This document shows, piece after piece, positions 9,051 through 26,178 of a stretch of DNA of 64,000 nt (position 1 is the stretch's first letter; each line of letters opens with the position of its first letter). Source of the DNA: Synechococcus sp. BIOS-E4-1 (lineage in GTDB: Bacteria > Cyanobacteriota > Cyanobacteriia > PCC-6307 > Cyanobiaceae); contig NZ_CP047935.1 in NCBI RefSeq assembly GCF_014279995.1, positions 1,447,494 to 1,511,493 of the forward strand, read 5' to 3'. The notes under the pieces were generated by a model that was not told the origin of the DNA, did no database searches, and saw only the letters and a list, made by a program, of their open reading frames with translations. Made by a program: the position numbers and the translations under genes.

Positions 9051-9077
9051 GATCAGGCGTCGTAGTACATCACGAAT
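9051..9077. repeat. attR: 27-bp direct repeat of the glnA 3-prime end
   Basis: A perfect 27-bp copy of 26152-26178, starting GATCAGGCGTCGTAGTACAT. Bases flanking the match differ on both sides. The sequence encodes the last residues (VMYYDA) and stop of glutamine synthetase on the minus strand, but no glnA body is attached here. It marks the distal junction of the integrated element. Confidence 0.9.
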
Positions 9078-9149
9078 GTCGTAATACACCGTCAATATCA
9101 CTAAAACACCAGTCACAGACTGCATTCTGCTTCTATCCCTATTCTGCCG

Positions 9150-9196
9150 TTTTGGGGACGCTTTTGGGGACAGCTTTGGGGACAGTTTTTGGGGAC
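9150..9196. repeat. Four iterated TTTTGGGGAC repeats, candidate integrase arm sites
   Basis: Copies at 9150-9159, 9162-9171, 9174-9183 (first T is C) and 9187-9196, spaced 12, 12 and 13 bp. The same unit recurs in the same orientation at 26085-26119 inside the other end. The period of about one helical turn and the position beside the attachment repeat fit arm-type sites of a tyrosine recombinase. Confidence 0.6.
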
Positions 9197-9252
9197 GGTT
9201 GACCACAGCACCGCCTCTTAGCTAGTACAGGTGTTCTAGCCGTGAGGACGCC

Positions 9253-9454
9253 ATGGGCGGATGGCCTTCAGGTCCGAAGGGTTACTGGCTTGCAAGGTTT
9301 CATCGGGACCCAAAGAGCACCTGCATCAAGGATCAAAGGGTGTTCGTGGATCACGGCAGACCGATGCCCGATGGACCTGCTTTGCTCAAGACACGCAGGG
9401 AAGCGATACGAGGATGCGCAGAAGCTTTGGCGTGAGCTGATCAGCTTTGGCTGA
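9253..9454 (+). pseudogene. DUF1651-like protein, frameshifted (copy 1)
   Basis: First of three related small genes. The frame from ATG 9253 reads WLARFHRDPKS, then RVFVDHGRPMPDGPALLKTRRE. It then leaves the family sequence. The expected continuation KRYEDAQKLWRELISFG lies in the next frame up to 9454. Compared with copies 2 and 3, two bases (AT of an ATG codon) appear to be missing near 9402. This looks like DUF1651, a small family common in Prochlorococcus and Synechococcus. The naming is from memory. Confidence 0.55.
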
Positions 9455-9622
9455 CAGCAGTCAGAGCCTCAATGGGGTGAGAGAGCTGAGCCTTAGCTGC
9501 TTCTGTCAGTTGTGTTGCTGAGGGTGCAGCCTTTTGAAAGTCTGAGAAAGAAGGACCCCCACGGCCCTTCTCAGAAAGCAGGATCCCGTCCAAGGAAGCG
9601 CTTTACAAAGCTTAATACTCCA

Positions 9623-9829
9623 ATGCTTCAGGCGTGGCTTGCTCGCTTCCAAGGAGACCCAAAGAGCAGGTGGGTCAGAGATCAGCGCGTGTTTGTCGAT
9701 CACGGCAGACCTATGCCTGATGGACCTGCTTTGCTCAAGACCAGAAGAGAGATGAGATTTGAAGCCGCGGCGAGTCTGTGGTTCCAGCTGAAGAGGCTTG
9801 GGTGGACCGTGGCTGAAGCTGCTTGGTGA
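9623..9829 (+). CDS. DUF1651-like small protein (copy 2)
   Basis: 68 residues from ATG 9623: WLARFQGDPKSRWVRDQRVF, then VDHGRPMPDGPALLKTRRE and SLWFQLKRLGWTVAEAAW. It has the full family pattern, unlike copy 1. In-frame sequence extends upstream to 9512, but similarity to copy 1 begins only near 9623. Copies 1 and 2 are nearly identical at nucleotide level around the VDHGRPMPDG motif, indicating recent duplication. The function is unknown. Confidence 0.6.
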   Translation: MLQAWLARFQGDPKSRWVRDQRVFVDHGRPMPDGPALLKTRREMRFEAAASLWFQLKRLGWTVAEAAW

Positions 9830-9888
9830 TTGCGTGTCCGCCGATACAAGTAGAGGCTTGTAGCTTTTGTTGGTCGAGACCGCGTCAA

Positions 9889-10119
9889 ATGGAAGGCTTG
9901 CTGACCATCGCGAACAAGTGCCAAACGGTCAGCTTCCTTTCCGATCCAAATACCAGTGGTTCGGCAAATGATGTTTTTGTGATCGTTGACCACATCAAAG
10001 ACATGCCAGAAGGTCATCCTCCACTTTTAAAGACACGCAGGAACATGCGTTATGAGGACGCCGTTGCTCTCTGGAAAGAGCTTCAACGCTGTGGGTGGAC
10101 TGTGGCGGAACCCGCTTGA
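9889..10119 (+). CDS. DUF1651-like small protein (copy 3, divergent)
   Basis: 76 residues from ATG 9889. The N-terminal part differs from copies 1 and 2. The C-terminal part keeps the signature FVIVDHIKDMPEG, PPLLKTRRNMRYEDA and WKELQRCGWTVAEPA. It is the most diverged member of the array. A GTG start at 9823, overlapping copy 2, is possible. The function is unknown. Confidence 0.55.
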   Translation: MEGLLTIANKCQTVSFLSDPNTSGSANDVFVIVDHIKDMPEGHPPLLKTRRNMRYEDAVALWKELQRCGWTVAEPA

Positions 10120-10999
10120 GGATGTGATCTAGAGCCCTCGAAGTCAGCCAGGAAGCCCTTGATCCTGATCGAGAGGTCCTTGCGCGTGTTGAAGGGGAGT
10201 GTCTACACCTGCCCTTAAATGTATTTCGGGGTGGGGGAGTTGTTAATACCTTCTACGATTTACAGGTTGCTATTGTTATTCGAATCTGATTTGCATTGTA
10301 AGCAATAGATATAGCAGCTAATCAGTCCTAAAAATGTAGGCACTAGGAGGCAGTATGCTTAACATCATTCACTGCAAGACCTGGAAGAATTTTTCTTGAC
10401 TTTTAATCCTTAAGCTGCTAGCAAGAGTGATAAGAAGCCAGTCAGGTAAAGGGAAACGGTACTGCTATTGGTACTGACAAGGCTGGAATCAAGCTATAAC
10501 TTGGATGCCCGATGCATAGTATGCATGGGACAAGAATCACTGTGCCTGAGTGACAACCATCCACCCTGATTGATTAGCAGCGCTGATGGGCTACGACGGC
10601 CTGCTGTCTGATGAATAAGGCAGCCAGATGCTAATTGATTATTATCAATAACTCAGTCGAGCAGAGCCCAGTGGTGACAGGGCTTTTTAGCCATTGCTTG
10701 GCGCACTTTATGCTGTCAGCTAACAGGTACTATTCATTTGCAATACGTAGTGACTACTAGGTGATAAGTAGAGCGTAACCTCGTTTTCAGCGAACCATTC
10801 TTATAGCTAACCTATCCGCTCAGAACCCAGTCGTAGCAGTGCTTCTTAGGAGTCGGTAGGTGTAGTCTGTGCTGGGCTGTGTTACTTAGAGGAACTACTT
10901 TATAGATAAGAATTTCTAATTTTGCGCCATCCACCCCACAACAATCAGGCCAATAATCAATCACCACAATCACTGAAAGGTCGTGTTCAGAGTGTCCTG

Positions 11000-11121
11000 C
11001 AGCCTGACAACATAGGATTCCTCTCACATATTTAGATAGAACTGTCTCAGGCACCTCCAGAAGGCTCTACAAGGCCCATCAGCTCATCGATACATCACAT
11101 CCACCACAGAAGCCATCAGGG
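11000..11121. repeat. 122-bp imperfect direct repeat, copy 1
   Basis: Similar to 12213-12336 along its whole length, with a conserved block AGAAGGCTCTACAAGG and a longer identical stretch TCATCGATACATCACATCCA. The two copies face the same way and bracket the 81-residue gene and the hli gene. Confidence 0.7.
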
Positions 11122-11190
11122 ACGCTTACAGGAGCTTGTGTGATATTCAGCGGATCAAGAATACTGGCAACAATAAAAAAAGTTGAGGCT

Positions 11191-11226
11191 AAAAGAAAAA
11201 GTCTCCCCGTAGTATCGCGAGGAGAC
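11191..11226 (-). terminator. Rho-independent terminator
   Basis: On the minus strand GTCTCC and GGAGAC (11226-11221 and 11206-11201) pair, followed by TTTTTCTTTT. It lies about 80 nt downstream of the minus-strand gene ending at 11306. Confidence 0.5.
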
Positions 11227-11305
11227 CCAATGCCCACATCCAGGATTCCAGTTCAAGAATGCCGGGTAGGGGTTAAGCGAATTGGACGAATCTTTCAGGC
11301 TGGCG

Positions 11306-11551
11306 TTATGCGAAAACCGCTTCTGAAGGCTTTGTTGTTGAGTCCGTCAGATCGTCTGTCTCTGGACTCTGGTCTGAACCGATTTTTGAGTCTTCAGCGC
11401 GAAGACGCCATTTGAGCTCATTAATTGCCCGAAGTGATTCGTCAGATTTCTTCGTATCTCCCATTGTACGGAAGTACTCAGCTCTGACTGTTTCCCACTT
11501 GATTGCAATTTCAATCTCCTCTGATGTTGAAAGTCTTAGTTTCGATGCCAT
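11306..11551 (-). CDS. Small hypothetical protein
   Basis: 81 residues, highly charged and largely helical (EEIEIAIKWETVRAEYFRTMGDTKKSDESLRAINELKWRL), with an acidic, serine/threonine-rich tail. No family is recognised. It is followed by a plausible terminator at 11191-11226, which supports it as a transcribed gene. It lies between the two copies of the 122-bp repeat. Confidence 0.5.
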   Translation of the reverse strand: MASKLRLSTSEEIEIAIKWETVRAEYFRTMGDTKKSDESLRAINELKWRLRAEDSKIGSDQSPETDDLTDSTTKPSEAVFA

Positions 11552-11796
11552 GTCAACTTATGCAAGTGAATCGAAGCTAAGAAGCACATGTGCAGAGCCG
11601 CGGTTGAAAGTTGCATTGATTTATCGCAAAAACCGTACACACTAATCTGTTTACATTTCACATTGAGTTCAGATTTAAGCGACTCAAGTGTCAACCGGCC
11701 AATTGTTTACTGCTTTCAGACTGGAAGGGCCAATAAAAATCCCCTACCGGTAGGCAGAGGAGAAGAGATGCCTGGCTGGATTTGAGAAAACGAAAC

Positions 11797-11955
11797 TCAG
11801 CCGAAAATTCCAAACACCTGGTCGATAATTCCCCTGCCAGTCAAAGCTTCAGTTGCCAAACCAATTGCAAGTCCAAGCATTGCAACTCGTCCATTGAGTT
11901 TTTCGCTGAAGACTTTGGTTGAGTCAGGGCTGAAATTGTCGGTTGCTTCGGGCAT
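11797..11955 (-). CDS. hli: High-light-inducible protein (Hli/Scp)
   Basis: A 52-residue single-helix protein. It begins MPEATDNFSPDSTKVF and carries the chlorophyll-binding motif EKLNGRVAMLGLAIGLATEALTG (E..NGR.AM.G pattern with a second glutamate in the helix), then GIIDQVFGIFG. Hli proteins bind chlorophyll and carotenoids and protect photosystem II under excess light. They are frequent in cyanophages and genomic islands, which fits its place inside the integrated element. Both the ATG (11955) and the stop TGA (11799) are clear. Confidence 0.92.
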   Translation of the reverse strand: MPEATDNFSPDSTKVFSEKLNGRVAMLGLAIGLATEALTGRGIIDQVFGIFG

Positions 11956-12444
11956 TGGATGGGACGCAATTAATCAATGTTAACGAATGTAACGGGCGTG
12001 TTGTGGGTTTCCGAGATGCCCTGCGGTAACTGGCTTTATTGGGAGGCAGGTTGATGGGATAAGTGACAATACTTAGTCGCCAATCACTGCCAGCTCTCGT
12101 TCAGTGGCCTACAGCGTGTCACACCAGAGGAACAATGCCCAATCAAGGATGCCGAAGTTGGCTCAGCAGGAGCAATATTCACTCATGCCCAGCTCTTCCA
12201 GTTTTTCTACAACAGCCTGACAGCACAAGATTCCCTTTGCATATATAGATAGGAGTGCTCTCAGGGGCACCTAGAAGGCTCTACAAGGGCTGTCGGTTCA
12301 TCGATACATCACATCCACTACAGAAGCTTTCAGGGCATCTCCTAGCGGCTTCCAAGGTTGACTCACCTCAGGACTAGACCCAACTGCACAAATTCCGAAG
12401 TGGTATCTAAAGAGTATTAACTCCCACTTCAATTTCTGTGCAGT
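11956..12444. other. Intergenic stretch with second repeat copy
   Basis: About 490 bp with no convincing gene. It contains the upstream region of hli and the second copy of the 122-bp repeat (12213-12336). The last 100 bp lie just beyond the stop of the replication gene. I see no clear terminator there. Confidence 0.5.
12213..12336. repeat. 122-bp imperfect direct repeat, copy 2
   Basis: Partner of 11000-11121. Shared blocks include CAGCCTGACA, AGAAGGCTCTACAAGG and TCATCGATACATCACATCCA. Small insertions and substitutions separate the copies, so the duplication is not recent. Confidence 0.7.
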
Positions 12445-15135
12445 TCAGGAGACCGTATACGACCAGACTCGAATGCCATTGGTGGAGACCTGTTTGCCTC
12501 TGGCCACATCAAACCCAGCCATTTGTACCAGTGCCTTAATGAACGTTGCCTTCACCACATCATCTGGACCTGGGATGACAATTTTGCCGCCAAGGAGTTG
12601 CTTCAGTTCTTGAGCTTCTTTCTTGACCAGGTTTTGCACAAGGGAGGCTACGGCTGCAAATTCCTGGGTGCCTTCATGGAACATCCCAGCATCAATCAGA
12701 GAGATCACGGAGAGCCTCTCCAGCCAGTAAAAAGCATGACTTGGATCCCTTCTTTCGTAATCAACAGCAAGACCAGTTACAGACGCTTTCTGAGCCTGTG
12801 ATCGTGCTTCGCCTAAACGGATCTCTCTCTTACAGAGTTGACGCAATAAACCCTGGCGGAATGACTTTGCATTGTCGCGCTGACGCTTTGCCCGTACCTT
12901 CCGTGATGTTGTGGCTCCCTTATTGGGGTTCTGTGCCAACAATTCAAGGAATGGCTTTAGCGTGTAACCCTGTTCCTGGAGACGGCACTTAAGCACGTGT
13001 TCATTAGCGAAGGCCTCATAATTATTCCGAGCCTCTAATTCGTGAGAATAAAAAAGTGAGCCGGTTGAAATTGCTCCAGCGAAGTCCCTATAGGCATCAA
13101 GATCACCATGACTGGCGGCCTTTGATTTAGCCCGTTGAACTGCTTCAAAGGTAGTTTTTCTGGTGCCCACCATTGCATTCGGAACAACCGAGGGCATCAA
13201 CAACACCCGGACCTGAGCACTGCGAGCCCGATCAAGAGCCTGCAGAGCATCCTCAGGACCCATGGCGTACTGCTGAACACAGGCAGCAATGCCCACAGAG
13301 GTCTTAGCCATTGAGATGCCGGAGATGACTGAGGGAGACATCGCCACCATGTCGTAAGCCGGACCGCTCCCTTCTGTGTTCCCCATGAATTCAGACACTG
13401 CCTGAGACGATGAGTTTTCTGCGCTGATCTGAAGGACGTTCTTCTCGTCAGTGAAGACAGCCGAGAATTCGATCATTGATTTGGCTTCCCCGAACGATGC
13501 CCAGACCTTGTGCCCGTCTTCCAGGGCTTGGGCCGAAAGCTGCTGCAGCAAGTCGATGTTCTCTCTATTGGTTTCCCCCACGTACAGAACACGCTCCCTG
13601 GCGAAGGTGGTCTGAATGACGCGGGGTGTTGTTCCGGTTGTCTCTTTCAGCCACTCCAGCTCGATGTCACCCAAGCCGGATTCAGCGGCGATCACGGTGA
13701 CGCAGGGATTTTTCAGGAGACGTTCAAGTGCCCTGACAGCTTCACGGCGAACCTCTGGCATCCGTTCAGTACCACCGACCAGAAGGTGCATCCCGGTCTG
13801 AGAGGTCTCATCCATGAACAGGAACGTGGGCCGTGGGTTCTCCTCCAGCTCATGGCTCCAACGCCACATATCCCATTCATTGCCTGGAGGCTTCTGGATC
13901 GACTCACAACAACAGAAAAGACCATCTCTGTTGAAGACTCCCTCATGCACGCCAAGAGTGCGTTCCACCGTGTTGCGTGCTGCCGACATGTCACGTACGC
14001 CGAATTCAGCAGCGCCCTTATGGACAAGCGAGGCACGGTGATACAGGCCCAGTACAACCATCCGATGGCCTAGCTCTCTCTCCATCAGGTCCACAGCAGC
14101 CACCGAGGCTTTCGTCTTGGCGGTACCGGTCGCACCAACCAAAGCGATCACGCGACTGTCGATGGATGCCTTCTGTATGTCCTCCGGTTCAAATTCCCTG
14201 TCGATGGTGATAGTTGACCACTGCTTACGGAGTCGGCTGTAAGGGGCTTGGCTAAAGAAGCCACGGACGCCCAGATCCTCCTGGTGGCCGAGAATTGGAA
14301 GGCTGGCGGGCACTTGCATCCCACGCAACTTCGCGGCGACATAGTCGTCCGTCTTGGCATAGCTACCGATCCAGCAGTACCAGCGAGCATCAGCACCGGC
14401 CTTTGATAGCTGGCGATGGAGTTGCTGAGCCATTCGTACAGAGGAGTTTCCCGCGTCGAACCGAACCGTGATCCGGCGACCACCTGCGGCCAACATCTCC
14501 AACGGCTTGCGGAGACGATCAGATCGAAGCTTCTGGCCACCAGAGTTGATGCCATTGAGGGCGACTGCGAGCTGCCCGATCGAAGATGAAGCCAACGCCT
14601 TCAGGGCTGACTCCTCGACGTGAACAGGGACCTCAGGGTTATCAAAGACGAACTGCCAAGCCTTCTCGATGCTGTATTGATCATCCGGGCAATCAAAGCC
14701 GTAGTGATCCAGAAGCTCCATGGCTCCAGACCAGCTCAGGGGAGGGAGGAAAACCTTCACCCGTGATGAACGGCAGTCGAATTTGATCTCGTCGTCGTCA
14801 CCGGTACGGATGGAGGGATGTAACCGATGGCCGGCCCACTCCAGTCCGGGCTTGATGATGCCCCGGTCAGTGATCACCGCTGAATAGAGGTTCCAGTTAA
14901 TGAAAGGGGTTTCCTTCAAAGTCCTGGAGGCCATCCGGTTCAGGTCACGTTCAGCCTGCGCCACCTCGTTAGGGCGTAGTTCGCTGTTGTCCCTGGCCTG
15001 CTTCTTCTTGGCCTCAGCGTGGCGATCAATCGCGTCTTCCCATCCCTTGTCTGCACCGGTTGTGATGAAACCGTCTGCAAACAGGGTGTGATCAATACCG
15101 TGGTTTTTAACCAGTTGAATACAGAGATCCTGCAC
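12445..15135 (-). CDS. CyRepA-like replication protein (primase/helicase-like)
   Basis: An 896-residue protein that I place with cyanobacterial plasmid replication proteins (CyRepA1 family, DUF3854 plus helicase-like ATPase). Residues 170-265 resemble the DUF3854 TOPRIM-like fold: VHVEESALKALASSS..LNGI, then ITVRFDAGNSSVRMAQQLHRQL and ARWYCWIGSYAKTDDYVA. The ATPase follows, with P-loop GATGTAKT (334-341) and a Walker B-like FLFMDETSQ. The charged C-terminal 250 residues are unassigned. GTG 15135 is two bases after the stop of the 77-residue gene, suggesting coupling. It is presumably the element's own replication initiator. A weaker alternative is a defence helicase. It is not a lanthipeptide synthetase: no LanC-type zinc motif is visible. 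Confidence 0.6.
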   Translation of the reverse strand: MQDLCIQLVKNHGIDHTLFADGFITTGADKGWEDAIDRHAEAKKKQARDNSELRPNEVAQAERDLNRMASRTLKETPFINWNLYSAVITDRGIIKPGLEWAGHRLHPSIRTGDDDEIKFDCRSSRVKVFLPPLSWSGAMELLDHYGFDCPDDQYSIEKAWQFVFDNPEVPVHVEESALKALASSSIGQLAVALNGINSGGQKLRSDRLRKPLEMLAAGGRRITVRFDAGNSSVRMAQQLHRQLSKAGADARWYCWIGSYAKTDDYVAAKLRGMQVPASLPILGHQEDLGVRGFFSQAPYSRLRKQWSTITIDREFEPEDIQKASIDSRVIALVGATGTAKTKASVAAVDLMERELGHRMVVLGLYHRASLVHKGAAEFGVRDMSAARNTVERTLGVHEGVFNRDGLFCCCESIQKPPGNEWDMWRWSHELEENPRPTFLFMDETSQTGMHLLVGGTERMPEVRREAVRALERLLKNPCVTVIAAESGLGDIELEWLKETTGTTPRVIQTTFARERVLYVGETNRENIDLLQQLSAQALEDGHKVWASFGEAKSMIEFSAVFTDEKNVLQISAENSSSQAVSEFMGNTEGSGPAYDMVAMSPSVISGISMAKTSVGIAACVQQYAMGPEDALQALDRARSAQVRVLLMPSVVPNAMVGTRKTTFEAVQRAKSKAASHGDLDAYRDFAGAISTGSLFYSHELEARNNYEAFANEHVLKCRLQEQGYTLKPFLELLAQNPNKGATTSRKVRAKRQRDNAKSFRQGLLRQLCKREIRLGEARSQAQKASVTGLAVDYERRDPSHAFYWLERLSVISLIDAGMFHEGTQEFAAVASLVQNLVKKEAQELKQLLGGKIVIPGPDDVVKATFIKALVQMAGFDVARGKQVSTNGIRVWSYTVS

Positions 15136-15137
15136 AA

Positions 15138-15371
15138 CTACGCCTCGGTCCCGAGCTGGAACAGTGCAGTCCCCTGGGCAGGAATCTCGCGGCCACTGGC
15201 TGCCATATAGACAACACCGCGCGAAGTGATCCTGAACCCGAGCACAATTTCCTCGTACTGATCAGTCACCGCCTGCATCGGCTGCCCCCAGGCTGTGAAC
15301 TTGAGTTCGAAACCGTGCCTCTTTCTCGGAGGACTGTTGCCGGATTCTCTGTAGAAAGTTTCTGTAGCCAT
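15138..15371 (-). CDS. Small hypothetical protein upstream of the replication gene
   Basis: 77 residues from ATG 15371 (MATETFYRESGNSPPRKRHG). It appears beta-rich and compact, with the run EEIVLGFRITSRGVVYMAASGREIPAQG. It ends two bases before the GTG of the CyRepA-like gene, so the two are probably translated together. No family is recognised. A role in replication control is inferred only from position. A longer frame to 15437 is open. Confidence 0.55.
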   Translation of the reverse strand: MATETFYRESGNSPPRKRHGFELKFTAWGQPMQAVTDQYEEIVLGFRITSRGVVYMAASGREIPAQGTALFQLGTEA

Positions 15372-15602
15372 GGTGGCGATCTCCTGTTGAAGTGAGTGAA
15401 TAAAGGCTTCTGATGCCCTACTTCCAGTAATAGGCACATGGGCAAGATGCAGTGTTTACATTCCGCAACACACCACATCCAGCGCCTGATAGTTCAGCTT
15501 CGGGCGTCTCTCGGTTGCCTCCTAGTCTTCCAATTCTGTCCATCTGACTTGGTAGGCCCATACAGGCAATAGGAAACCTATGGCTGTAATAACTGGACAG
15601 CT

Positions 15603-15782
15603 ATGGCTATTTCGGACAAGCGAATCCCTGTGTACTTCGGCACTTCCATGGAAGACAGGGTGCTCCGTGATCGTATTGCTGTCGGGGCTAAGTCCTTTGG
15701 GATGAACCAATCAGCCTTCCTGAGAGCTGCTGCCGTCTACGCCCTGGATAATGTAATTGACTTCGCCAGGAAGACGCGGTGA
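15603..15782 (+). CDS. Ribbon-helix-helix-like small regulator
   Basis: 59 residues: MAISDKRIPVYFGTSMEDR, then LRDRIAVGAKSFGMNQSAFLRAAAVYAL. A short N-terminal strand (RIPVYFGT) followed by two helices with the turn SFGMNQSAFLR fits the CopG/Arc RHH fold. It is divergent from the replication operon. Upstream lies an inverted repeat GCTGT-9-ACAGC (15583-15601) next to the start codon, a possible autoregulatory operator. It may control copy number or the replication operon (inference). Confidence 0.6.
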   Translation: MAISDKRIPVYFGTSMEDRVLRDRIAVGAKSFGMNQSAFLRAAAVYALDNVIDFARKTR

Positions 15783-15800
15783 AGAATAAAAGTGGCTGGC

Positions 15801-15944
15801 ATGAGCTTCAGGAACCAACTTTATTCTGAATACAAAGCAAACAGATATAAACCTAGAGCACCACGCTGGATCACCATCTGGAAGCGTTATGACGTGCCGT
15901 TGAGTTGGCTGGCAGCTGAGCCTGATTGCTGCCCCTGGCTATGA
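15801..15944 (+). CDS. Possible 47-residue protein
   Basis: An open frame from ATG 15801, 18 nt after the RHH-like gene on the same strand. It is basic, with clustered aromatic residues (KANRYKPRAPRWITIWKRYDVPLSWL) and a CC pair near the end. There is no recognised family and the ribosome binding site is weak. It might be a small accessory gene or chance. Confidence 0.3.
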   Translation: MSFRNQLYSEYKANRYKPRAPRWITIWKRYDVPLSWLAAEPDCCPWL

Positions 15945-16061
15945 ATTAATAAGCTCAATCGTGCCAGGTATTGATGGCTGATTTGTGGGATTCGTCAGAC
16001 TATTGAAGCGCTAAAAGCTCCCTATTATAACAGATTGTTTTTTGTGAATTAGTTATTAACT

Positions 16062-16334
16062 CTACCAATTCACAGTGCAATAAGTCGACGCTCGGCAGTC
16101 TTTTTGGCAACTGCCATCCCCACACCCGCCTTGCATATAGCTCCCACCACCAGCCACGCCTTCCAGCTCAGCCTCAGTGAGCTCTTTAGTAAGGTCGTCA
16201 TCAGAAACCTCAAACCCAGCCTCTCTGGCAATCGCAAGAACTGCATCAGGGTTCGCTGCAACCTTAAGCTTCTCCTGAAGGATAGTGTCTGATTTAACTT
16301 TTTCCATGAAGGCTTTGAACTGTTCCTCTGACAT
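16062..16334 (-). CDS. procA: Prochlorosin-type lanthipeptide precursor 1 (four Cys)
   Basis: A 90-residue precursor with a Nif11-like leader of 63 residues ending ELTEAELEGVAGG, the double-glycine cleavage signal cut by the ProcT-type peptidase/exporter. The core of 27 residues starts GSYMQGGCGDGSC and has Cys at core positions 8, 13, 17 and 23 and Ser/Thr at 2, 12, 20, 21 and 24. Several thioether rings are therefore possible. A ProcM-like synthetase would dehydrate Ser/Thr and cyclise them onto Cys. None is encoded in this window. The ATG at 16334 aligns with the other leaders and is preferred over 16343. The mature function is unknown. Confidence 0.88.
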   Translation of the reverse strand: MSEEQFKAFMEKVKSDTILQEKLKVAANPDAVLAIAREAGFEVSDDDLTKELTEAELEGVAGGGSYMQGGCGDGSCQKDCRASTYCTVNW

Positions 16335-16472
16335 GGGTTTCAAAAGTCATCAACAACTATAGCACGATATTCTGCAGCGTCTTTGTCAATCGATTAATAC
16401 GCTCAATTGTGCCAGGTATTGAAGGCTGATTGATGGTCTTTTTGGGGTGATTGAAGAGATAAAAAGCCCCTG

Positions 16473-16712: not shown

Positions 16713-16894
16713 GGGTAACGGGCTTGTTAAGCAGTCATAGCACTGGTCTGCTGCAGAGGCTTTGGTTAATAATTACTGCGCTCAATCGTGCCAGGTATTG
16801 GTGGCTGATTGATGGTCTTTTTGGAGTGATTGAAGAAATAAAAACCCCAGCCGTTGCAGGGGCTTTGATGAGTAGGCTCAGCTCCATCCGGCTT

Positions 16895-18262: not shown

Positions 18263-18338
18263 GGCTTTCGGGAGTCTTTAACGGTTATAGCAACGGTCGG
18301 AATACTAGTCATATCAGCTTAGATGAGACTGCAGTCCA

Positions 18339-18801: not shown

Positions 18802-19085
18802 GTAAGAACATTCCACCCCGTCCTTTGACCCAGCGCCAACAGGACTACGACAATTTTCAAGCCTTTCGAGATGAGGTCTGGCGACAAAATTGGATCGAGG
18901 GTGAACGACTCGAATCTGAAAAGCTGTGGCGGGAGTTTGAAGAAGAAGGTGGTGTCAGTTCTTATCTGAGAGACGCCCAGACAGCTCTAGAAGAGGCCCG
19001 CGCTGTGCAGGCCGCAAGAAATGCCAAGTTGTCCAATAGGGTCGCTACAGCAGTTGCCGAGAGCTTTATCGACCTCGATATCTGA
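18798..19085 (+). CDS. Hypothetical helical protein
   Basis: 95 residues from GTG 18798, which overlaps the previous stop (GTGA). Highly charged and helical throughout (QQDYDNFQAFRDEVWRQNWIEGERLESEKLWREFEEE and SYLRDAQTALEEARAVQAARNAKL), likely coiled coil. It is last in the small operon and ends directly against the convergent gene at 19086. The function is unknown. Confidence 0.55.
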   Translation: MSKNIPPRPLTQRQQDYDNFQAFRDEVWRQNWIEGERLESEKLWREFEEEGGVSSYLRDAQTALEEARAVQAARNAKLSNRVATAVAESFIDLDI

Positions 19086-19451
19086 TCAGCAAACAGCAGA
19101 AAAATCAGCCCGAATATCCGTTGCCGTCGACGACAGGCCTACCCGTGCAGCAGTAATCCCGTAACCACGGGTGCAAGCGGCGAGGCGATATTCGCCAGGA
19201 AAAAAGCTGGGATTAGATGGTCCCCGGAAATCTCCCCAGCCATAGGTCAAGTTTTTGGTAACCCCGCCTTTCTGAACCTGGATGATCACCTCATCCGTGT
19301 CTGCGGCGAAGGTAGCGACGATATTGATCTGAGCAGTCTTGGCTGACTGGAGGCCAACGATTGGCTGGAAGCTTGTTGTCAGCAGACCGGCTTCGTCGTC
19401 GGTTGAAGCGGTGTTGGGGAAGAGTCCGTAAGAGCGTCTTGAAGGTGCCAT
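19086..19451 (-). CDS. Hypothetical protein downstream of terminase
   Basis: 121 residues, beta-rich in appearance (AKTAQINIVATFAADTDEVIIQVQKGG, then KNLTYGWGDFRG and PGEYRLAACTRG). There is no signal peptide and no recognised family. The composition is compatible with a small virion-type or decoration protein, but this is only an impression. It is the last gene of the minus-strand packaging cluster, 87 nt after terL. Confidence 0.45.
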   Translation of the reverse strand: MAPSRRSYGLFPNTASTDDEAGLLTTSFQPIVGLQSAKTAQINIVATFAADTDEVIIQVQKGGVTKNLTYGWGDFRGPSNPSFFPGEYRLAACTRGYGITAARVGLSSTATDIRADFSAVC

Positions 19452-19538
19452 GAGTATTGAAGGCAGTACTCCATAGGCTTCCTGGGCAACCTAAAAATGT
19501 AGACATGACGGGTGGTTTGAGCCTGCCGCCCTCTTTCT

Positions 19539-21458
19539 TCAGTCCCAGATTTTGTATCTCTCAGCGAGTGATGGTCGACGTGCGTGGGTGCCTCTGCCCC
19601 AGGTCACTTCAGTGACTCCTGCAATACCACCGCTACCCCCGACCCAGCGGACATCGCCAGGGGTAAAGCCAGACGAGAGCCAGTGTGAATTGACCCAGTC
19701 GACGGCGTAGTTGCAGGCATCGGCATAGTCGTCGCGATCGCGTTTCTTGTCGAGAGCGATAGAGCGTTGCTGTTGGTGGAGAGTTTCAATCAGCGGCACG
19801 TCAGCCCTGATCAGGACCTTCCCACTGGCGGCCAGTCCCAGGATCTTTGCCTGGCGGTTCCGCTTTGAACGACCCTCATGGCTCAGGGGTACCACGTTGA
19901 AAGTGCGGCCAGCGACATTGTTCCCCAGGCTTCTCAGGATGTAGTGCCCACCTGCTGCCTTTTCAACGCCAAGGGTATGGCAGTTGTATTTATCGGCGTA
20001 GTCCAGGATCTGAGGCAGGGCATCTTCGACATGGCCGTGCAACTCATGGACGCCAAGGATGACGGCCTTCTGATCTTGGGCACCGACTGCAACCAGGGCG
20101 CTGGTATCGGATCCTTTTTCACCGGATAGGTTCATATCGATTGCGATGAATGAGCCACGGCAGGTGATGTCGTCTTGCTCAATGGGCACCAGGTACGAAC
20201 GCCGCCAGGAGCAGTAGCCAACGTCAACGGAGCAGTCGAGTTTGTATAGCGCTGCGAAATCTGTCGGCGGCATCTGCGCTTCCAGTTCTTCCGCGAACTC
20301 CTTTGTGAACTGGTGACTGACGGGCTCCCCAGGCTCTCCGAATCTCGGGAACTTGACCAGCCATGAAGCGGGATAGTCATTCAGGATCCTGGCCCTTTCA
20401 TCGTTGTCTGGGTTCAATAGTGGAGATGCCAGCACAGTCCACGGCACGACTTTGTCGCCAGCCTTCTCTCGGCCCTTGTCTCGGTCGATCATCCGTTGGG
20501 TTGGGTCATTAGGTCCAAGCCGCTGGGCAATAAGGATCAACCCCTGGCCTTTGCCTGCCTTGTCGCGGGTCAAGCGGGTCATGATGTCCACGCCAATAGT
20601 CCGCATGGCCGTATCGATCACGTCGACCGACTCGCATTCGGCGATGTTGCCCACGATGTCGTCCACCAGAACGATGTGCCCCGTGTATCCCAGCAGTGCT
20701 GCTCCTCTGGATGCCGCTAGCTGAGTCCTGCCACCTTCCCAGTCTGGAGCCCAAGCAAGTTTCGATTTCTGATCAGTCTTGATTCCGTAGCCAGCGGGGA
20801 CTGCCACCTCGAACAGCGTTTTGAACAACGCACAGTTCATTGCACTGAGTCGACCGTTGGCGCTGATCAGGATGTGGCCACGGTCCGGATATCGGAGAAG
20901 TGACCAGCACAGGGCCAAGATCGCGCAGGTGGTTTTGCTGTGCCTCGGGGGTGGGTTGACCATTAATCGGCCGCCAGCCTTCCCGTCGATCAATGCCTCG
21001 AACTCGACCAGCATTGCTTCGGTTACTGAATCCAGCTCGAAGCCAGGACATACAACGCGGGCATAGAGCAAACTAAATTCCGTCAGCCCCATCTGAATGG
21101 GCTCTGGAGGTGGCAATAAGGTGTCGCCGTTGTTAGTTACTGTCGCGTCAGATCGGCGGCGCTTGCGTGCCTTTGGAGCCTCTGCTGTCTTATCTGGAAG
21201 AGGGTAAATCCTTTCGTGGATTGGTTGCTGTTGGCGAGCTAAGAACAGCGATCGTCTCTCCTCCCACTTGTATCCAGTGCGATAGCGGGCAAACGTCGCG
21301 GCAGAGACAATTCCATTGTCAGCGGCCAGCTCTTCATCGCTGCACCATTCGAGTTCCTTCCACCTCTGGAAGTGCTGATGTGCGGAGGCTCGTTCACCCT
21401 GTTGTCGGCGCAAAGGGCAGCTGGTATCGAGCTTGAAGTGCCGGGTATTAGTAGCCAT
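19539..21458 (-). CDS. terL: Phage terminase large subunit with N-terminal HTH
   Basis: A 639-residue TerL. The ATPase has a phage-type P-loop PPPRHSKTT (169-177), Walker B HIVLVDDIVG (261-270) and coupling segment LILIAQRLGPND (307-318). The RNase H-like nuclease follows, with the first catalytic Asp in FIAIDMNLSGEKGSDTSAL (about D441) and the last acidic cluster RDRDDYADACNYAVDW. The N-terminal 70 residues (SDEELAADNGIVSAATFARYRTGYKWEERR) look like the helix-turn-helix of a terminase small subunit or transposase-type HTH, fused here. TerL packages DNA into procapsids. No portal, capsid or tail gene accompanies it. It is coupled to the upstream gene with a GAGG ribosome binding site. Confidence 0.88.
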   Translation of the reverse strand: MATNTRHFKLDTSCPLRRQQGERASAHQHFQRWKELEWCSDEELAADNGIVSAATFARYRTGYKWEERRSLFLARQQQPIHERIYPLPDKTAEAPKARKRRRSDATVTNNGDTLLPPPEPIQMGLTEFSLLYARVVCPGFELDSVTEAMLVEFEALIDGKAGGRLMVNPPPRHSKTTCAILALCWSLLRYPDRGHILISANGRLSAMNCALFKTLFEVAVPAGYGIKTDQKSKLAWAPDWEGGRTQLAASRGAALLGYTGHIVLVDDIVGNIAECESVDVIDTAMRTIGVDIMTRLTRDKAGKGQGLILIAQRLGPNDPTQRMIDRDKGREKAGDKVVPWTVLASPLLNPDNDERARILNDYPASWLVKFPRFGEPGEPVSHQFTKEFAEELEAQMPPTDFAALYKLDCSVDVGYCSWRRSYLVPIEQDDITCRGSFIAIDMNLSGEKGSDTSALVAVGAQDQKAVILGVHELHGHVEDALPQILDYADKYNCHTLGVEKAAGGHYILRSLGNNVAGRTFNVVPLSHEGRSKRNRQAKILGLAASGKVLIRADVPLIETLHQQQRSIALDKKRDRDDYADACNYAVDWVNSHWLSSGFTPGDVRWVGGSGGIAGVTEVTWGRGTHARRPSLAERYKIWD

Positions 21459-21459
21459 A

Positions 21460-21849
21460 TCAATTTTCCTCGATTACTAGTTCCTGGACATAGAGAGGCG
21501 AACTCCCTGGTCGTTGCATGCCGTGCCGGTTTGTATAAACAGAAAGCCCAGGGCTGACGGCAATAATCTCGTCGAATCTTTCACCAGCTAGGTCAGGGCC
21601 GATGTTGATCAGGTGAGTCCCCAGGGATACACTCCAGAGTCCGGCAGGTTCAATACGATCGATACTGAATCGGACGTGAGTTGTATTATCAGCCAGGTCT
21701 AGACAGCCATGATTATGGGCCTTATAGATACGGTCTAGCTTGTCAATGACCTCCAGCTTTTTGCGAGTTTTTATCGTGGTCTCGATGTACTCTAAAACCC
21801 CGTATTTGTTTGTTCTGTAGCTACCAACCTTAGGTCCCCCAGACATCAT
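21460..21849 (-). CDS. Hypothetical protein upstream of terL
   Basis: 129 residues. The N-terminal half is basic (YRTNKYGVLEYIETTIKTRKKLEVIDKLDRIYKAHNHG). The second half looks like a small beta barrel (THVRFSIDRIEPAGLWSVSLGTHLINIG). It starts with an ATGA overlap with the upstream gene (21846-21849) and ends one base before the terL ATG, so the three genes form one translation-coupled unit. No family is recognised. A packaging or regulatory partner role is inferred from position only. Confidence 0.6.
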   Translation of the reverse strand: MMSGGPKVGSYRTNKYGVLEYIETTIKTRKKLEVIDKLDRIYKAHNHGCLDLADNTTHVRFSIDRIEPAGLWSVSLGTHLINIGPDLAGERFDEIIAVSPGLSVYTNRHGMQRPGSSPLYVQELVIEEN

Positions 21850-22511
21850 TCGCCCTGCGCAGCAGCGTCCTGAGTGGCGATAGATGCGCGTCTGGCTAGT
21901 TCGGCCTGGATAGCATCATTAGAGACGTTCTGGAGGCCTGTAGAGTCCTGAGCAGCAATAGCTTCCTGAGCAGCCTTTAGTTCTTGGCGGATGCTTTCGT
22001 CGCTGCTAGTTGCTTTTTCTTCGGCGGCTTTAAGCGCTAAGCGGGAGTGAACATATGCGGCAGCTTCGCCGTCAACTTCCTTGAGCATTTTTACGGCCTC
22101 ATTACCGTAGCGGTTAATGAAATGCTTGATTTGATCGTCAAGTGCAGCCGAGTCGCGAAGAATCTCAGACGTGGTCATTGATGCTAAAGCTTCTGTATCA
22201 GCCAGGGCAGCATTAAAGACAGACCTCCTCTCAGAAATGCTTAAACCTGTTTTGTCGGTTAAATCCTGCTGAAGCTTCTTTTCTGCTTTGGTTGGTTCTA
22301 CATAGCCATTATCCAAAATCCATTCAGGCAAATCGGCATAAGGTACGTCCTGGTTCTGCAGTTCCTGGATCTGATAAAGCTCCTCAAAAGTTAGCTTTTT
22401 AGATTTTGCTTGATTCACCCGCCAGCGCTTTCCTGTGATTGCGCGTGGTGCTTTGAAGTCATCTTGGCCAAATGCTTGTTGAAATAGTTCTGCCCGTGTG
22501 TCCTGATCCAT
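21846..22511 (-). CDS. Hypothetical helical protein, first gene of the terL operon
   Basis: 221 residues, acidic and mostly helical. It contains an N-terminal basic patch (RAITGKRWRVNQAKSKKLTFEELYQIQELQ) followed by long helices. The C-terminal third is rich in Ala, Gln and Glu (EEKATSSDESIRQELKAAQEAIAAQDS), a composition typical of scaffolding or coiled-coil proteins. No recognisable domain is seen. It could be a terminase small subunit-like or scaffold-like protein, but nothing in the sequence proves this. Confidence 0.6.
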   Translation of the reverse strand: MDQDTRAELFQQAFGQDDFKAPRAITGKRWRVNQAKSKKLTFEELYQIQELQNQDVPYADLPEWILDNGYVEPTKAEKKLQQDLTDKTGLSISERRSVFNAALADTEALASMTTSEILRDSAALDDQIKHFINRYGNEAVKMLKEVDGEAAAYVHSRLALKAAEEKATSSDESIRQELKAAQEAIAAQDSTGLQNVSNDAIQAELARRASIATQDAAAQGE

Positions 22512-22617
22512 GGGAGGATGTTTCTTATATCTGATATATATTGCCTAAAATGGCTAAAGCGGCTGCGTCGGAAAGCAGATCACGCTAACAGTCTCTTCGG
22601 AAAACTTGATCAGTTAA

Positions 22618-23028
22618 ATGATATCCATGAGAAAGACCATTTTTCGCAAAGTTGTCACTACAGCGGGCCAACCAAAGACGTTTAGGGTAGAAGGTGCTAG
22701 ATATCCGTACAGCGCTAAGATGACATGGTCACGCAGCACACCAGGCAGTAAATTGACGCTGCACACAGGATGCGCTTTCAACCCAAAGATTGACCTTGGA
22801 AGTTACGACCGCAGCCAGAAAGAATATGAAGTCGACCTATCTAAGGGCGATATAGTATTTTCGTTTCCGACTGAGATTGTTCTGGAGACAACAGGAAAGG
22901 CATCGGTATTAATCGCCTTAGAGTGCGAGTTCCCAACCCGAAAAAAGCGAAGCAGTGTTGTACAAGAATCTACCTCGGTAGTGGTGACTGAATTTCCTGT
23001 TGTTCCTGTAATGCCAACGGAAAACTGA
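22618..23028 (+). CDS. Hypothetical beta-rich protein
   Basis: 136 residues, beginning MISMRKTIFRKVVTTAG. The pattern of alternating hydrophobic residues (KLTLHTGCAF, YEVDLSKGDIVFSFPTEIVLETTGKASVLIALECEF) suggests a beta sandwich. The C-terminus is low complexity. No family is recognised. It is divergent from the terL operon, with 106 nt between, and is followed by a 49-residue gene. Confidence 0.55.
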   Translation: MISMRKTIFRKVVTTAGQPKTFRVEGARYPYSAKMTWSRSTPGSKLTLHTGCAFNPKIDLGSYDRSQKEYEVDLSKGDIVFSFPTEIVLETTGKASVLIALECEFPTRKKRSSVVQESTSVVVTEFPVVPVMPTEN

Positions 23029-23032
23029 GCCT

Positions 23033-23182
23033 ATGGATAATTACACCGTGATCCCTAATGAGCAGGTTCAGCAGCTTGCTGAGAGGGGTTTTGAACTGAT
23101 TCGGCAGGGTCGACCACAGGACGCTGACAGTCTCTGGGATGAGTGGGGTTTAAGGGCCTTCTTTATTGGTGGTGAGGACTAG
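23033..23182 (+). CDS. Small hypothetical protein (49 aa)
   Basis: MDNYTVIPNEQVQQLAERGF, then ELIRQGRPQDADSLWDEWGL and RAFFIGGED. It is amphipathic and helical, acidic overall, and coherent in composition. It starts 4 nt after the preceding gene on the same strand and its stop overlaps the stop of the convergent second recombinase through the sequence CTAG. The function is unknown. Confidence 0.5.
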   Translation: MDNYTVIPNEQVQQLAERGFELIRQGRPQDADSLWDEWGLRAFFIGGED

Positions 23183-24270: not shown

Positions 24271-26069
24271 TACTGTTGCTCCCCCTTGTAGGCAGGCAGG
24301 GCAAGGTGTTCGGCATGCAGCTCGATCGCCCGCGCCATTGATGGCAGGTCATCAGAGGTGTATTGACTGAGCGGTGTGTTCCCCGTCTTGCCTGTGACCA
24401 TCTCCACGATCCGCGCAGGAACCGCGCTGTTGAGCAGGTTGTTGATCAGGGTTTCCCGCCAGGAATGCGTACCAGGGAAGTCAGGAATCTTGTCCCGCAT
24501 GCGTCGAGCAAGGTTGTCTCCCCAGTGAGCGCGTTCTGTTTTGGGCTCTTCCTTCGGGAATGCAGGTTCCTTGCTCTTTGGCCCAGCGTGTTTATTCCAT
24601 ATCTCCTCTGCGCAGTTGGGTAAGGGAACGATCCGTTCTGACTGTGGAGTCTTGAGGCCGCCACGCTCCCCCAGGACCGCAATGCCCCTCTTGCTCCAGC
24701 GCACAATCTCGATGCACTTGTAGGTTTTGCCGTCGAACTTCCGCTCGGTGAAATCACATCGCCTGAGACCCGCCACCTCCTGGATTCGGGTGCCAGTAAC
24801 GGCCTGTAGATAGAAGAGATCAAACCCTGAATCACGGTTGCCGCGCTTGTCGCTGTTCATCCGCTCATAGATCGATCGCGCTTCCTCAGGACTGATCACC
24901 TTGTTGGAATCAACCGTCTTGCGTGAATCCACCTGCTGTTGCATGGCAGCCCGTCGATCCTTTGGCAGGTTCCTGAACGGGTTCTCCTCAAGTAGGCCTT
25001 GCCTGACGGAAGCGTTGAAGATGCTGTTTAGGTAGCGAACCTCTTTGCTGACACTCGAAGACGACAGGCCCGAGTCACCACTGAAAAGCCAGCTCCTGTA
25101 CTGCTTCGCAACCTCATCGTCGATGGCTCCTGGAAGGTGCAGTGAGTAGTTCGCTTTAGTCCAGCTCTCCAGTCTTTCAGCGGCCTTTGTCATGCCAGCC
25201 AGGGTGCCGACAGCAACGCCTTCCTCCTGCTTGGCCCCAAGCAATCTCTGCCAGGTGGTGCTCTTTTCTTCCAGTGCTGGTTTTGGTGCTTTCAGTCGAC
25301 CCTGTACGCGGGCAACGTCGGCGATCTCCAGGTGGTCTTTAACCAGATCAGAGAACCGCTCCAGGATGCGATCTAGTCCGTTTTCTGTCGGTCTGAAGCC
25401 GTTATCCCAGCAGAGTTGTTCAATCTTCCTGCCCTCTTCAAGCTTTGCTTTGTCAATGACATAAATGCGGCCATCCACATCCAGATCGTCAAGGGTGAAC
25501 GACTTAAGGAACTTCTCTAGTAACTCCCGCTCTTCCTTTGTTAATTGCACATAGGGCTTGTGTTCCAGCTGTGGATGCTCTTTGAAAAAGGCCTTTTCTT
25601 TCTCTGTTCGCTGGATCTCTGCAAATAGAACTTTTCCGTCTTCTGTTTCGTGGTGACCCTTCCCGCCCGAAGCCGTATTGGCGAAGGCTTGCAAGACAGT
25701 GGAATTCATGTCCTGCAGGTTCAATCCACGCTGTGCCGCTGAGATCCACTGATTGGCCAGCTGTTGAGCGATTCCCTCTAGATCTGTGCCGCTGTAATCA
25801 ACGGTGTTGCCAGCCAGCGTGAGCAGCATTTCTTGGATCTGGCCATTGCGCCTGTGGCAATAGCTCTCGGCTTCCTTCTGGCTCGTGACCAGCGTCCCGT
25901 CAGCTCTCTTGATCCACTCGTCTATGTATTTCGGCTTGATCCGACCTGGGTAGAGCTTTGCCTGAGCCGCCAGGTTTTTGACAAAGAAGAATCCATCCCG
26001 ACCTACACGTCGATAGAGCCCAAGCCCACGGGGAGCGGAAGCAACTCTTGTCGGAAGATCGCGACCCAA
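24270..26069 (-). CDS. int: Site-specific tyrosine integrase
   Basis: A large integrase of 599 residues. The catalytic domain has Arg in LQAVTGTRIQEVAGLRRCDF (R428), box II GTHSWRETLINNLLN (H535, R538), a Lys in place of the usual third His/Trp (VTGKTGN) and the nucleophile Tyr570 in LSQYTSDD. The core-binding domain is around 290-370 (ERLESWTKANYSL ... LNSIFNASVRQGLLEENPF). The N-terminal 280 residues are a long arm-binding/helical region. The start is TTG 26069, preceded by AAGGAGG (26080-26086) and a run of nine T. It is adjacent to attL and reads away from glnA. Its promoter region overlaps the TTTTGGGGAC arm repeats, so autoregulation is likely. Confidence 0.9.
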   Translation of the reverse strand: MGRDLPTRVASAPRGLGLYRRVGRDGFFFVKNLAAQAKLYPGRIKPKYIDEWIKRADGTLVTSQKEAESYCHRRNGQIQEMLLTLAGNTVDYSGTDLEGIAQQLANQWISAAQRGLNLQDMNSTVLQAFANTASGGKGHHETEDGKVLFAEIQRTEKEKAFFKEHPQLEHKPYVQLTKEERELLEKFLKSFTLDDLDVDGRIYVIDKAKLEEGRKIEQLCWDNGFRPTENGLDRILERFSDLVKDHLEIADVARVQGRLKAPKPALEEKSTTWQRLLGAKQEEGVAVGTLAGMTKAAERLESWTKANYSLHLPGAIDDEVAKQYRSWLFSGDSGLSSSSVSKEVRYLNSIFNASVRQGLLEENPFRNLPKDRRAAMQQQVDSRKTVDSNKVISPEEARSIYERMNSDKRGNRDSGFDLFYLQAVTGTRIQEVAGLRRCDFTERKFDGKTYKCIEIVRWSKRGIAVLGERGGLKTPQSERIVPLPNCAEEIWNKHAGPKSKEPAFPKEEPKTERAHWGDNLARRMRDKIPDFPGTHSWRETLINNLLNSAVPARIVEMVTGKTGNTPLSQYTSDDLPSMARAIELHAEHLALPAYKGEQQ

Positions 26070-26084
26070 AAAAAAACGGCCTCC

Positions 26085-26119
26085 TTTTGGGGACCATTTT
26101 GGGGACAGTTTTTGGGGAA
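26085..26119. repeat. Three iterated TTTTGGGGAC repeats, candidate arm sites
   Basis: Copies at 26085-26094, 26097-26106 and 26110-26119 (last base differs), spaced 12 and 13 bp, in the same orientation as those at 9150-9196. They lie between the integrase start and the attachment repeat. Confidence 0.6.
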
Positions 26120-26129
26120 AGTCAAGTAC

Positions 26130-26144
26130 CCTAGTGCTACTAGG
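26130..26144. promoter_or_regulatory. Palindrome beside the attachment site
   Basis: CCTAGT-GCT-ACTAGG is a perfect inverted repeat 8 bp from the attL core, in the integrase upstream region. A related but weaker one (GCTAG-10-CTAGC) is at 9221-9240 inside the other end. Each could be an operator or an excisionase/integrase binding site. Confidence 0.4.
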
Positions 26145-26151
26145 CCCTATT

Positions 26152-26178
26152 GATCAGGCGTCGTAGTACATCACGAAT
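26152..26178. repeat. attL: 27-bp direct repeat at the end of glnA
   Basis: A perfect match to 9051-9077. It includes the glnA stop, the last eight codons and two bases beyond the stop. Integration here leaves the glnA product unchanged. Confidence 0.9.

Follow-up and report, generated by a model that had tools for sequence, protein, structure and literature searches.

The DNA analyzed here, a stretch of 64,000 nucleotides from Synechococcus sp. BIOS-E4-1 referred to below as the window, carries an integrative element at the 3′ end of glnA, the gene coding for glutamine synthetase. BIOS-E4-1 is a marine Synechococcus with many unique genes, as described in passages of PMC7522525. Proceeding leftward from glnA, the element contains two tyrosine recombinase genes, int1 and int2, a block of genes around a terminase large subunit (TerL), five precursors of ribosomally synthesized and post-translationally modified peptides (RiPPs) with Nif11 leaders, a replication gene, a high-light-inducible protein gene (hli) and three DUF1651-type open reading frames (ORFs). 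Int2, the five Nif11 precursors and hli, together with clusters of arm-type sites at both ends and relatives elsewhere, are additions to the first-pass annotation of this DNA. Genomes, contigs and loci used for comparison are cited by handles (G, C and L numbers).

Attachment site and empty sites

The first-pass annotation had proposed an integrative element delimited by a perfect 27-bp direct repeat derived from the end of glnA, and both parts of this claim hold. The two 27-mers, at 9051-9077 and 26152-26178, match perfectly and lie 17,101 bp apart, copy to copy, and they are beyond chance, the expectation for an exact 27-mer repeat within 64 kb being about 1e-7 under equal base use; the right copy comprises the final codons and the stop of glnA, whose ORF is intact. 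The inward-reading tyrosine integrase that had been placed beside one copy is int1, on the minus strand, with its start about 80 bp short of the right copy. The source genome (G000) is a single contig of 3,314,220 bp in which a 20-nt core of the repeat occurs exactly twice at up to three mismatches, so that both repeat copies are present in one contig. The 64-kb window contains no tRNA genes.

The best matches of glnA in 30 other genomes of the genus are 86-99% identical, and the DNA behind the gene was covered in 26 of them (all except G211, G214, G218 and G221). The host gene on the far side of the element follows glnA in 24 of the 26, the contig stopping first in G219 and G156; the gap between glnA and this neighbour measures 409-550 bp in 11 genomes, 1.2-1.9 kb in three and 3.5-8.7 kb in ten, and no int1 match at 1e-5 was obtained in any of the 26 stretches. 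The left repeat copy lies about 515 bp from the neighbour gene, which is the distance seen in empty sites. When the flanks of the window are joined across the element, they are collinear with the empty sites of G212 (84.8% over 877 bp), G208 (83.7% over 860 bp) and G141 (73% over 963 bp), while seven further genomes with a short or 1.2-kb gap aligned to the joined flanks in separate pieces only. The hairpin that had been reported at 8997-9020 was recovered as a terminator-like stem at 9001-9020, and a similar hairpin is found within about 40-50 nt behind glnA in all three aligned empty sites, so that the empty site predicted from the window is indeed present in congeners. With these empty sites and both repeat copies at hand, integration at glnA is well supported.

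Table 1. Position in the window, strand and main evidence for the features of the element and its flanks (aa, amino acids; identities refer to the relatives named)
Feature	Position	Strand	Remarks
Host gene, 361 aa	7453-8538	-	Methyltransferase-like (by eye); native far-side neighbour of the site
Native glnA terminator	9001-9020	-	Pushed away from glnA by the insertion; terminator-like stem, z -3.4
attL core	9051-9077	.	Displaced copy of glnA 3′ end; 27-bp perfect repeat; native glnA flank of empty sites outward
Left arm-type sites	9147-9196	-	Four GTCCCCAA repeats; -126/-113/-101/-89 from 20-nt core
Three DUF1651-type ORFs	9253-9435, 9512-9829, 9823-10119	+	glnA-element backbone; Pfam DUF1651 8.6e-14 for 9512-9829
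682-bp stretch	10470-11151	.	Largely non-coding; 81% nucleotide identity to L127 2-684 (luxR-site element of G220)
81-aa ORF	11306-11551	-	55% identical to ORF of L050, decayed glnA element of G220
hli (cargo)	11797-11955	-	phrog_178 6.4e-7
Replication protein, 896 aa	12445-15135	-	DUF3854 4.9e-13; phrog_4913 (replication) 5.2e-10
Small ORF	15138-15437	-	Directly upstream of replication gene; 90% identical in G220:C7
Small ORF	15603-15782	+	DNA-binding regulator (guess); 39% identical in G220:C7; no family match
Nif11-leader RiPP precursor 5	16062-16343	-	TIGR03798 8.6e-24
Nif11-leader RiPP precursor 4	16473-16712	-	TIGR03798 3e-25; 82% identical in G220:C7
Nif11-leader RiPP precursor 3	16895-17149	-	TIGR03798 1.4e-23
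Nif11-leader RiPP precursor 2	17362-17631	-	TIGR03798 2.2e-22; core without Cys
Nif11-leader RiPP precursor 1	18014-18262	-	TIGR03798 1.8e-23; Pfam Nif11
Small conserved ORF of module	18416-18628	+	87% identical in G220:C7
Small ribbon-helix-helix-like ORF	18613-18801	+	79% identical in G220:C7; weak RHH match 0.03
Small conserved ORF of module	18771-19085	+	About 60% identical in G220:C7
p19451, adjoining TerL	19086-19451	-	Conserved protein; 76-79% identical in three relatives
TerL, 639 aa	19539-21458	-	phrog_38 6.8e-39; Terminase_6C 2.1e-7
p21849, terminase module	21460-21849	-	Conserved protein; 94% G220, 43% G204
p22511, upstream of TerL	21846-22511	-	Conserved helical protein; 60, 35 and 45% identical in three relatives
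p22618, terminase module	22618-23028	+	Conserved protein; 63% G220, 44% G204
int2, 363 aa	23179-24270	-	Second tyrosine recombinase; start overlaps int1 stop by one base
int1, 599 aa	24270-26069	-	glnA-specific tyrosine recombinase by comparison; TTG start; phrog_1 (integrase) 6.9e-22; Phage_int_SAM_5 1.3e-7
Right arm-type sites	26084-26119	-	Three GTCCCCAA-type repeats; +32/+45/+57 from 20-nt core
attR core	26152-26178	.	Last codons and stop of glnA; overlaps glnA ORF
glnA (host)	26154-27605	-	ORF intact

Core copies and arm-type sites

In nine genomes searched for the 20-nt core at up to three mismatches, two copies were found in eight and one in G180, which carries two less similar glnA-end copies 11.8 kb apart; the reversed pattern, used as a control, gave no matches. 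In eight of the nine (G000, G165, G106, G307, G062, G206, G308 and G220), the neighbour gene is located outside the outermost core copy; it is absent from the stretch covered in G180. Besides the element of the window, core-to-core lengths are 11,723 bp in Synechococcus AG-670-B23, 6,768 bp in G206 and 4,566 bp in the first segment of G220, and the exact shared core ranges from 12 to 58 nt across elements.

Both ends of the element also carry short direct repeats with a spacing of about 12 nt, the right arm (35 nt) being 91% identical to the left one. Triplets of this type occur within the 64 kb at the two ends only, and in none of 100 first-order shuffles. Six other genomes have the same geometry at one end or at both, with repeats at +32/+45/+57 from the core at attR and at about -112/-99/-87 at attL; the number of repeats at attR and attL, counted in genomes other than G180, is 3/4 in G000, 2/3 in each of G106, G165 and G307, 3/2 in G062, 0/4 in G220 and 0/0 in G206, and in G308, where attR was tested, it is 2. 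A core flanked by clusters of arm sites is the plan of lambda-type integrase systems. Since the spacing of the arms is kept while the aligned integrases have diverged to 33-75% identity with Int1, the arm sites are very likely functional.

In Cyanobium T1B-Tous, one contig opens with exactly 127 nt common to the contig holding glnA and int1, and then continues into the neighbour gene. This is a hint of excision: a graph assembler would produce such a contig from reads covering occupied as well as empty sites, or from an unusually long left repeat.

The Int1 clade

Residues R428, K473, H535, R538 and Y570 of Int1 are invariant across four sequences, the aligned integrases having the divergence given above. 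A profile built from four sequences matched 37 of 400 genomes of the family. In 11 of these the match reached E<1e-25 or fell in the N-terminal 100 positions, and all 11 matches (G000, G106, G165, G180, G289, G241, G299, G348, G189, G062 and G268) lie beside glnA, about 75-200 bp off; five are fragments or pseudogenes (G062, G299, G348, G189 and G268), and int1 of G106 is split by a transposase-like insert (by eye). G307 and G308 apparently denote the assemblies also cited as G289 and G241. The other 26 genomes gave weaker matches, mostly to the catalytic half of the protein, and glnA was present in none of the 20 loci examined, the locus check covering all but the weak matches of G211, G048, G080, G154, G244 and G264. 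A search of named genomes returned five loci, four of them at glnA (Synechococcus AG-670-B23, Synechococcus CS-1330, Cyanobium T1B-Tous and a Cyanobium metagenome-assembled genome); the fifth, L126, is 24% identical and lies away from glnA, with a tRNA-Ser about 0.9 kb off. Int1 had no match among plasmids and two among phages, at 24% identity over 37% of the protein. These comparisons indicate that the Int1 clade is glnA-specific and that it spans several picocyanobacterial genera. Two of the Int1 loci also contain small serine-recombinase-like ORFs, recognized by eye (L070 18660-19517 and L122 15894-16625).

The terminase module and the chimeric body

The second recombinase, Int2, matches Phage_integrase weakly (0.012, under the curated cut-off), and its residues R213, K240, R312, R315 and Y347 are invariant in six aligned sequences, Int2 included. 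The gene order int2, p22618, p22511, p21849, TerL is kept in G204 and, minus int2, on contig C7 of G220, where the module has nucleotide identities of 81% over 683 bp and 76% over 1104 bp. Blocks of similarity to G220:C7 extend through window positions 10470-23178 (10470-11151, 12213-12351, 15143-15485, much of 15922-18936, 19474-19539, 21261-22354 and 22684-23178) and reach position 10830 of L127, near half a luxR gene; the replication genes differ, with DUF3854 in the element of the window versus a VapE-like gene in G220:C7. Much of window 9051-10397, in turn, is similar to the decayed elements that G220 has at glnA. With a left end of glnA type and a body of luxR type, a glnA backbone with Int1 has been combined with a terminase body; thus, the element is, on comparative evidence, a chimera that has undergone module exchange.

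As for the luxR site, the parts of the luxR gene found on G220 contigs C19 and C7 (L109 and L127) share the 11 nt GCAGAGAGTGC, which suggests that a terminase-module element interrupts a luxR-type gene in this genome. Enzymes of the int2 type stand beside luxR in G204 and on G220:C19. On G220:C5 (L108, 79-2212), the 3′ end of argB (by eye) is immediately followed by an int2-type recombinase and may be another docking site in a protein gene.

TerL matched 10 of 300 genomes, its own included, with more than 45% identity in G220, G204, G270 and G243; the copies in G270 and G243 are damaged, whereas those of the window, G204 and G220 are full-length, with identities of 50-53%. Close relatives of Int2 (E<1e-20) occur in G220, G204, G270 and G087, a distribution indicating that Int2 goes with the terminase instead of with Int1. 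Int2 was rejected as an obligate partner of Int1, no Int2 match being present in the Int1 loci of G165, G180 and AG-670-B23 (in G106 about 1.3 kb behind int1 was covered). An Int2 attachment sequence inside the element, derived from the end of argB or luxR, was also rejected, with matches of only 10-12 nt, at chance level. Weak homologues of Int2 in other genomes, with open frames of 407-415 aa, were discarded as mobile, the loci L100 and L103 having the same adjoining gene (by eye); they are probably a core gene. In the module itself, p22511 is by position a candidate small terminase subunit, and the predicted model of p19451 has a mean confidence (pLDDT) of 39, at which its fold is not resolved.

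Cargo, replication gene and left-end genes

All five precursors match the Nif11 leader model TIGR03798 over its cut-off, and four have cysteines in the core (by eye). The core without cysteine, that of precursor 2, contains repeated (G)PATY motifs and cannot give rise to lanthionine rings by the usual route. Nif11 genes stand beside the terminase block in three of five cases (the window, G204 and G220:C7), none being matched in G270, a short contig, and G243, which is decayed. The BIOS-E4-1 genome has a very large repertoire of such precursors, with at least 150 Nif11 domain matches (281 candidates) clustered around the genome; since these genes are so common, their co-occurrence with the terminase is by itself weak evidence. 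More telling is that the luxR-site element has one precursor (82% identical) and its small neighbours (60-87%) in common with the window. Three DUF4135 (LanM-type) matches are found elsewhere in the genome, two of them in open frames of more than 1100 aa.

The largely non-coding stretch at 10470-11151 may be an origin, a regulatory region or a packaging site; Rfam gave no match at gathering scores, this stretch included. Two of the DUF1651-type ORFs, 9253-9435 and 9823-10119, were assigned by tblastn similarity to the third. Ten proteins searched with PADLOC gave no match at 0.01. Direct repeats of about 120 bp (78-83%) at 11000-11121 and 12213-12335 flank hli and the 81-aa ORF, as if this segment were a small cargo cassette that had been inserted. 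Far from the element, at 63022-63988 near the end of the window, low-GC DNA holds two small ORFs that begin almost identically, with exact 20-mer repeats at 63022 and 63691.

Other occupants of the glnA site

In G206, glnA is followed by the gene of a tyrosine recombinase of 404 aa, whose identity to Int1 is about 20% across 254 positions. A second core copy lies 6.8 kb off, arms of the Int1 type are absent, and the flanks have GTGGATAGA-type repeats (by eye). The enzyme was rejected as a second glnA-specific family: among 25 loci of it and its relatives, glnA was found within a flank of about 1.5 kb at G206 only. With Int1 and this unrelated enzyme both located there, the glnA end is a hot spot for two or more types of integrase. 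Relatives of the G206 integrase at L193 and L215 follow ORFs resembling glyS and an rpoD-type sigma factor (by eye), and the 3′ ends of protein genes may be common sites of this family.

In G220, three tandem core copies (27, 25 and 19 of 27 positions) bound two integrase-less segments that share a few genes of the element. The first has 342 bp at 89% to the left end of the element and 108 bp at 88% to the right end; for the second, the corresponding values are 81% and 71-74%. Being bounded by the same att core and by element ends, the segments are read as decayed relatives. G220 comes near to what would have spoken against an integrative element, namely integrase-less relatives with the same genes in place, yet it reads as a product of decay.

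The 4-9 kb islands behind glnA in L058, L059, L060, L062, L063, L065 and L069 were considered as members and rejected: they contain other genes and no convincing second core copy, the one candidate having 18 of 27 positions. In L058, L060, L063 and their relatives, genes resembling an EF-hand arginase/agmatinase and a urea transporter (by eye) stand between glnA and the neighbour gene, and this type of island is possibly nitrogen-related.

Nature of the element and proposed mechanism

The integrase with its R-K-H-R-Y residues beside one att, the att copies at both ends and the empty sites are those of a tyrosine-recombinase integrative element. Resemblance to a phage satellite rests on an integrase and replication genes accompanied by no credible virion genes, together with the packaging gene TerL: no credible PHROG match to capsid, portal or tail genes was found in the 20 window ORFs searched, the weak matches of one Nif11 ORF to head scaffolding (0.031) and endolysin (0.039) being taken as chance. 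A Pfam scan covering 20 window ORFs gave no match to relaxase or conjugation genes. The likeness to phage satellites noted in the first-pass annotation is therefore fair for the body, and short of proof; that to tycheposons, also noted there, stands in part only, with no tRNA in the window and an Int1 clade at glnA. By its site the element is not a tycheposon. Overall, we consider it likely that this is a chimeric integrative mobile element, integrated by Int1 at the glnA end, most likely packaged by a helper and bringing lanthipeptide precursors; the body is probably helper-dependent and packaged in helper capsids by its own terminase.

In the mechanism that we propose, Int1 would recognize the last glnA codons, using the core and three or four arm sites per side, and would act on attP, so that the circular element and the chromosome undergo site-specific recombination of the lambda type. 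The glnA frame would be rebuilt with identical codons, the old end and its terminator being pushed 17.1 kb away, and the terminase body would have been exchanged in from another element lineage. Excision and replication would be followed by packaging into a helper-phage capsid by the element's own terminase, and the lanthipeptide precursors would be modified in trans by chromosomal LanM enzymes. The element possibly supplies glnA with a replacement terminator, on weak grounds.

Several observations weigh against this picture, in which excision, helper packaging, peptide modification, the role of Int2 and the current mobility of the element are inferred. TerL, p19451 and Int1 found nothing close among viral contigs, apart from one TerL match at 25%, and the nearest (best-covered) phage TerL is about 23% identical; the model of p22511 (pLDDT 70) had no match in the Protein Data Bank at E<=0.001. 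G204 has a whole luxR, with no second copy or long repeat around the module, whose ends are consequently undefined there. Second core copies lie on another contig in G106 and G165, where linkage is not shown (those of G308 are also on different contigs), and in G062 they are 355 kb apart, so that this element is read as rearranged. The right end of G220 at glnA has no arm pattern, and the integrase-less segments of the same genome suggest that some members of the glnA family decay. Finally, the hairpin that would replace the terminator has z values of -2.1 in the window, -1.8 in G106 and +0.3 in G220, where the stretch may cut the hairpin.

Among the alternatives, a non-packaged cargo island, in which the terminase is dead weight or has another role and transfer occurs by vesicles, transformation or general transduction, is somewhat unlikely. 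It would agree with the Int1 elements of G165, G180 and AG-670-B23, which carry primase/VapE-type genes and no match to TerL in the stretches covered, indicating that glnA elements do not need this terminase; however, the window, G204 and G220 all have a full-length TerL with conserved neighbours, which suggests that its function has been retained. A degraded prophage at glnA, having lost its structural genes and retained the terminase as a relic, is improbable. TerL, integrases, replication genes and hli are all known from cyanophages, and all four are present here; the best-covered phage matches of the terminase are Synechococcus phages S-CRES1-3 and S-CBS2 and cyanophage PSS2, and the weak scaffolding and endolysin matches mentioned above could be counted on the same side. 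The terminase block, however, is intact, with its order kept in G204 and, minus int2, in G220, the stretches of both genomes contain no obvious virion genes either (by eye only), and the PHROG search of the window had the outcome already given. That the locus is merely a duplicated glnA end beside an ordinary, non-mobile strain-specific island, as seven of nine first-read 4-9 kb islands with unrelated genes and no convincing second att might suggest, is hardly credible, being contradicted by arm-site geometry conserved in divergent genomes, by second core copies in independent genomes and by the glnA-specific integrase clade.

Returning to the packaged chimeric element, a broader proposal, which we put forward tentatively and with more doubt than confidence, is that of a lineage of terminase-bearing satellites in picocyanobacteria, with a lanthipeptide array as regular payload, activated by promiscuous host LanM enzymes, that changes its address by swapping integrase modules (Int2-type near luxR, Int1 at glnA). 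If true, satellites would be a vehicle seeding prochlorosin genes, and glnA a conserved docking site for unrelated integrases.

Comparison with known systems

Some of the tycheposons of Hackl et al. (2023) are reportedly viral satellites. Lambda-type systems have a core and arm clusters on both sides; in the window there are three or four direct repeats per side, at a spacing of about 12 nt, and the core lies in the end of glnA.

The phage satellite PICMI at fis, as described in passages of PMC10803314, is likewise small, located behind a protein gene and endowed with an integrase and a replication gene, with no credible virion genes; however, it measures about 6 kb and has another site and host, whereas the element of the window has 17 kb, its own TerL and a peptide array. 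Tycheposons, known here second-hand from passages of PMC10872708 and PMC10187409, are similar as picocyanobacterial tyrosine-recombinase elements with cargo, but their site is a tRNA gene instead of glnA. The picocyanobacterial integrase element at tRNA-Phe and tRNA-Cys that is described in parts of PMC10187409 represents integrative islands of the same hosts; it has a small serine-recombinase-like ORF near its integrase, and similar ORFs are seen by eye in two Int1 loci. Its integrase family, according to the same passages, escaped PHROGs, whereas Int1 was found by phrog_1; Int2, unlike Int1, has no credible PHROG match. No report of glnA as an integration site was found among the open-licence PMC papers listed. 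Passages of PMC7522525 deal with picocyanobacterial islands, and the glnA mentioned in those of PMC10872708 is cargo. The element is of a known kind, belonging to a site family for which no report was found and carrying unusual cargo. It clearly exemplifies the exchange of integrase modules by element bodies, and the C-terminus of glutamine synthetase is a conserved docking site, whose integrase could serve as a site-specific integration tool for picocyanobacteria.

The peptide array resembles those of the prochlorosins (ProcA) described in passages of PMC10783134, with Nif11 leaders, a double-glycine-type end, cysteines in most cores and LanM-type genes elsewhere. The same passages attribute the spread of prochlorosin precursors to horizontal transfer and cite a connection with TnpA-REP transposases, and the main text of that paper has no occurrence of the word phage. 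ProcA clusters have recombinases or transposases nearby, whereas the array of the window lies inside a terminase-bearing integrative element. The element family would be a further, concrete and testable vehicle for prochlorosin precursors, with defined ends, core and arm sites.

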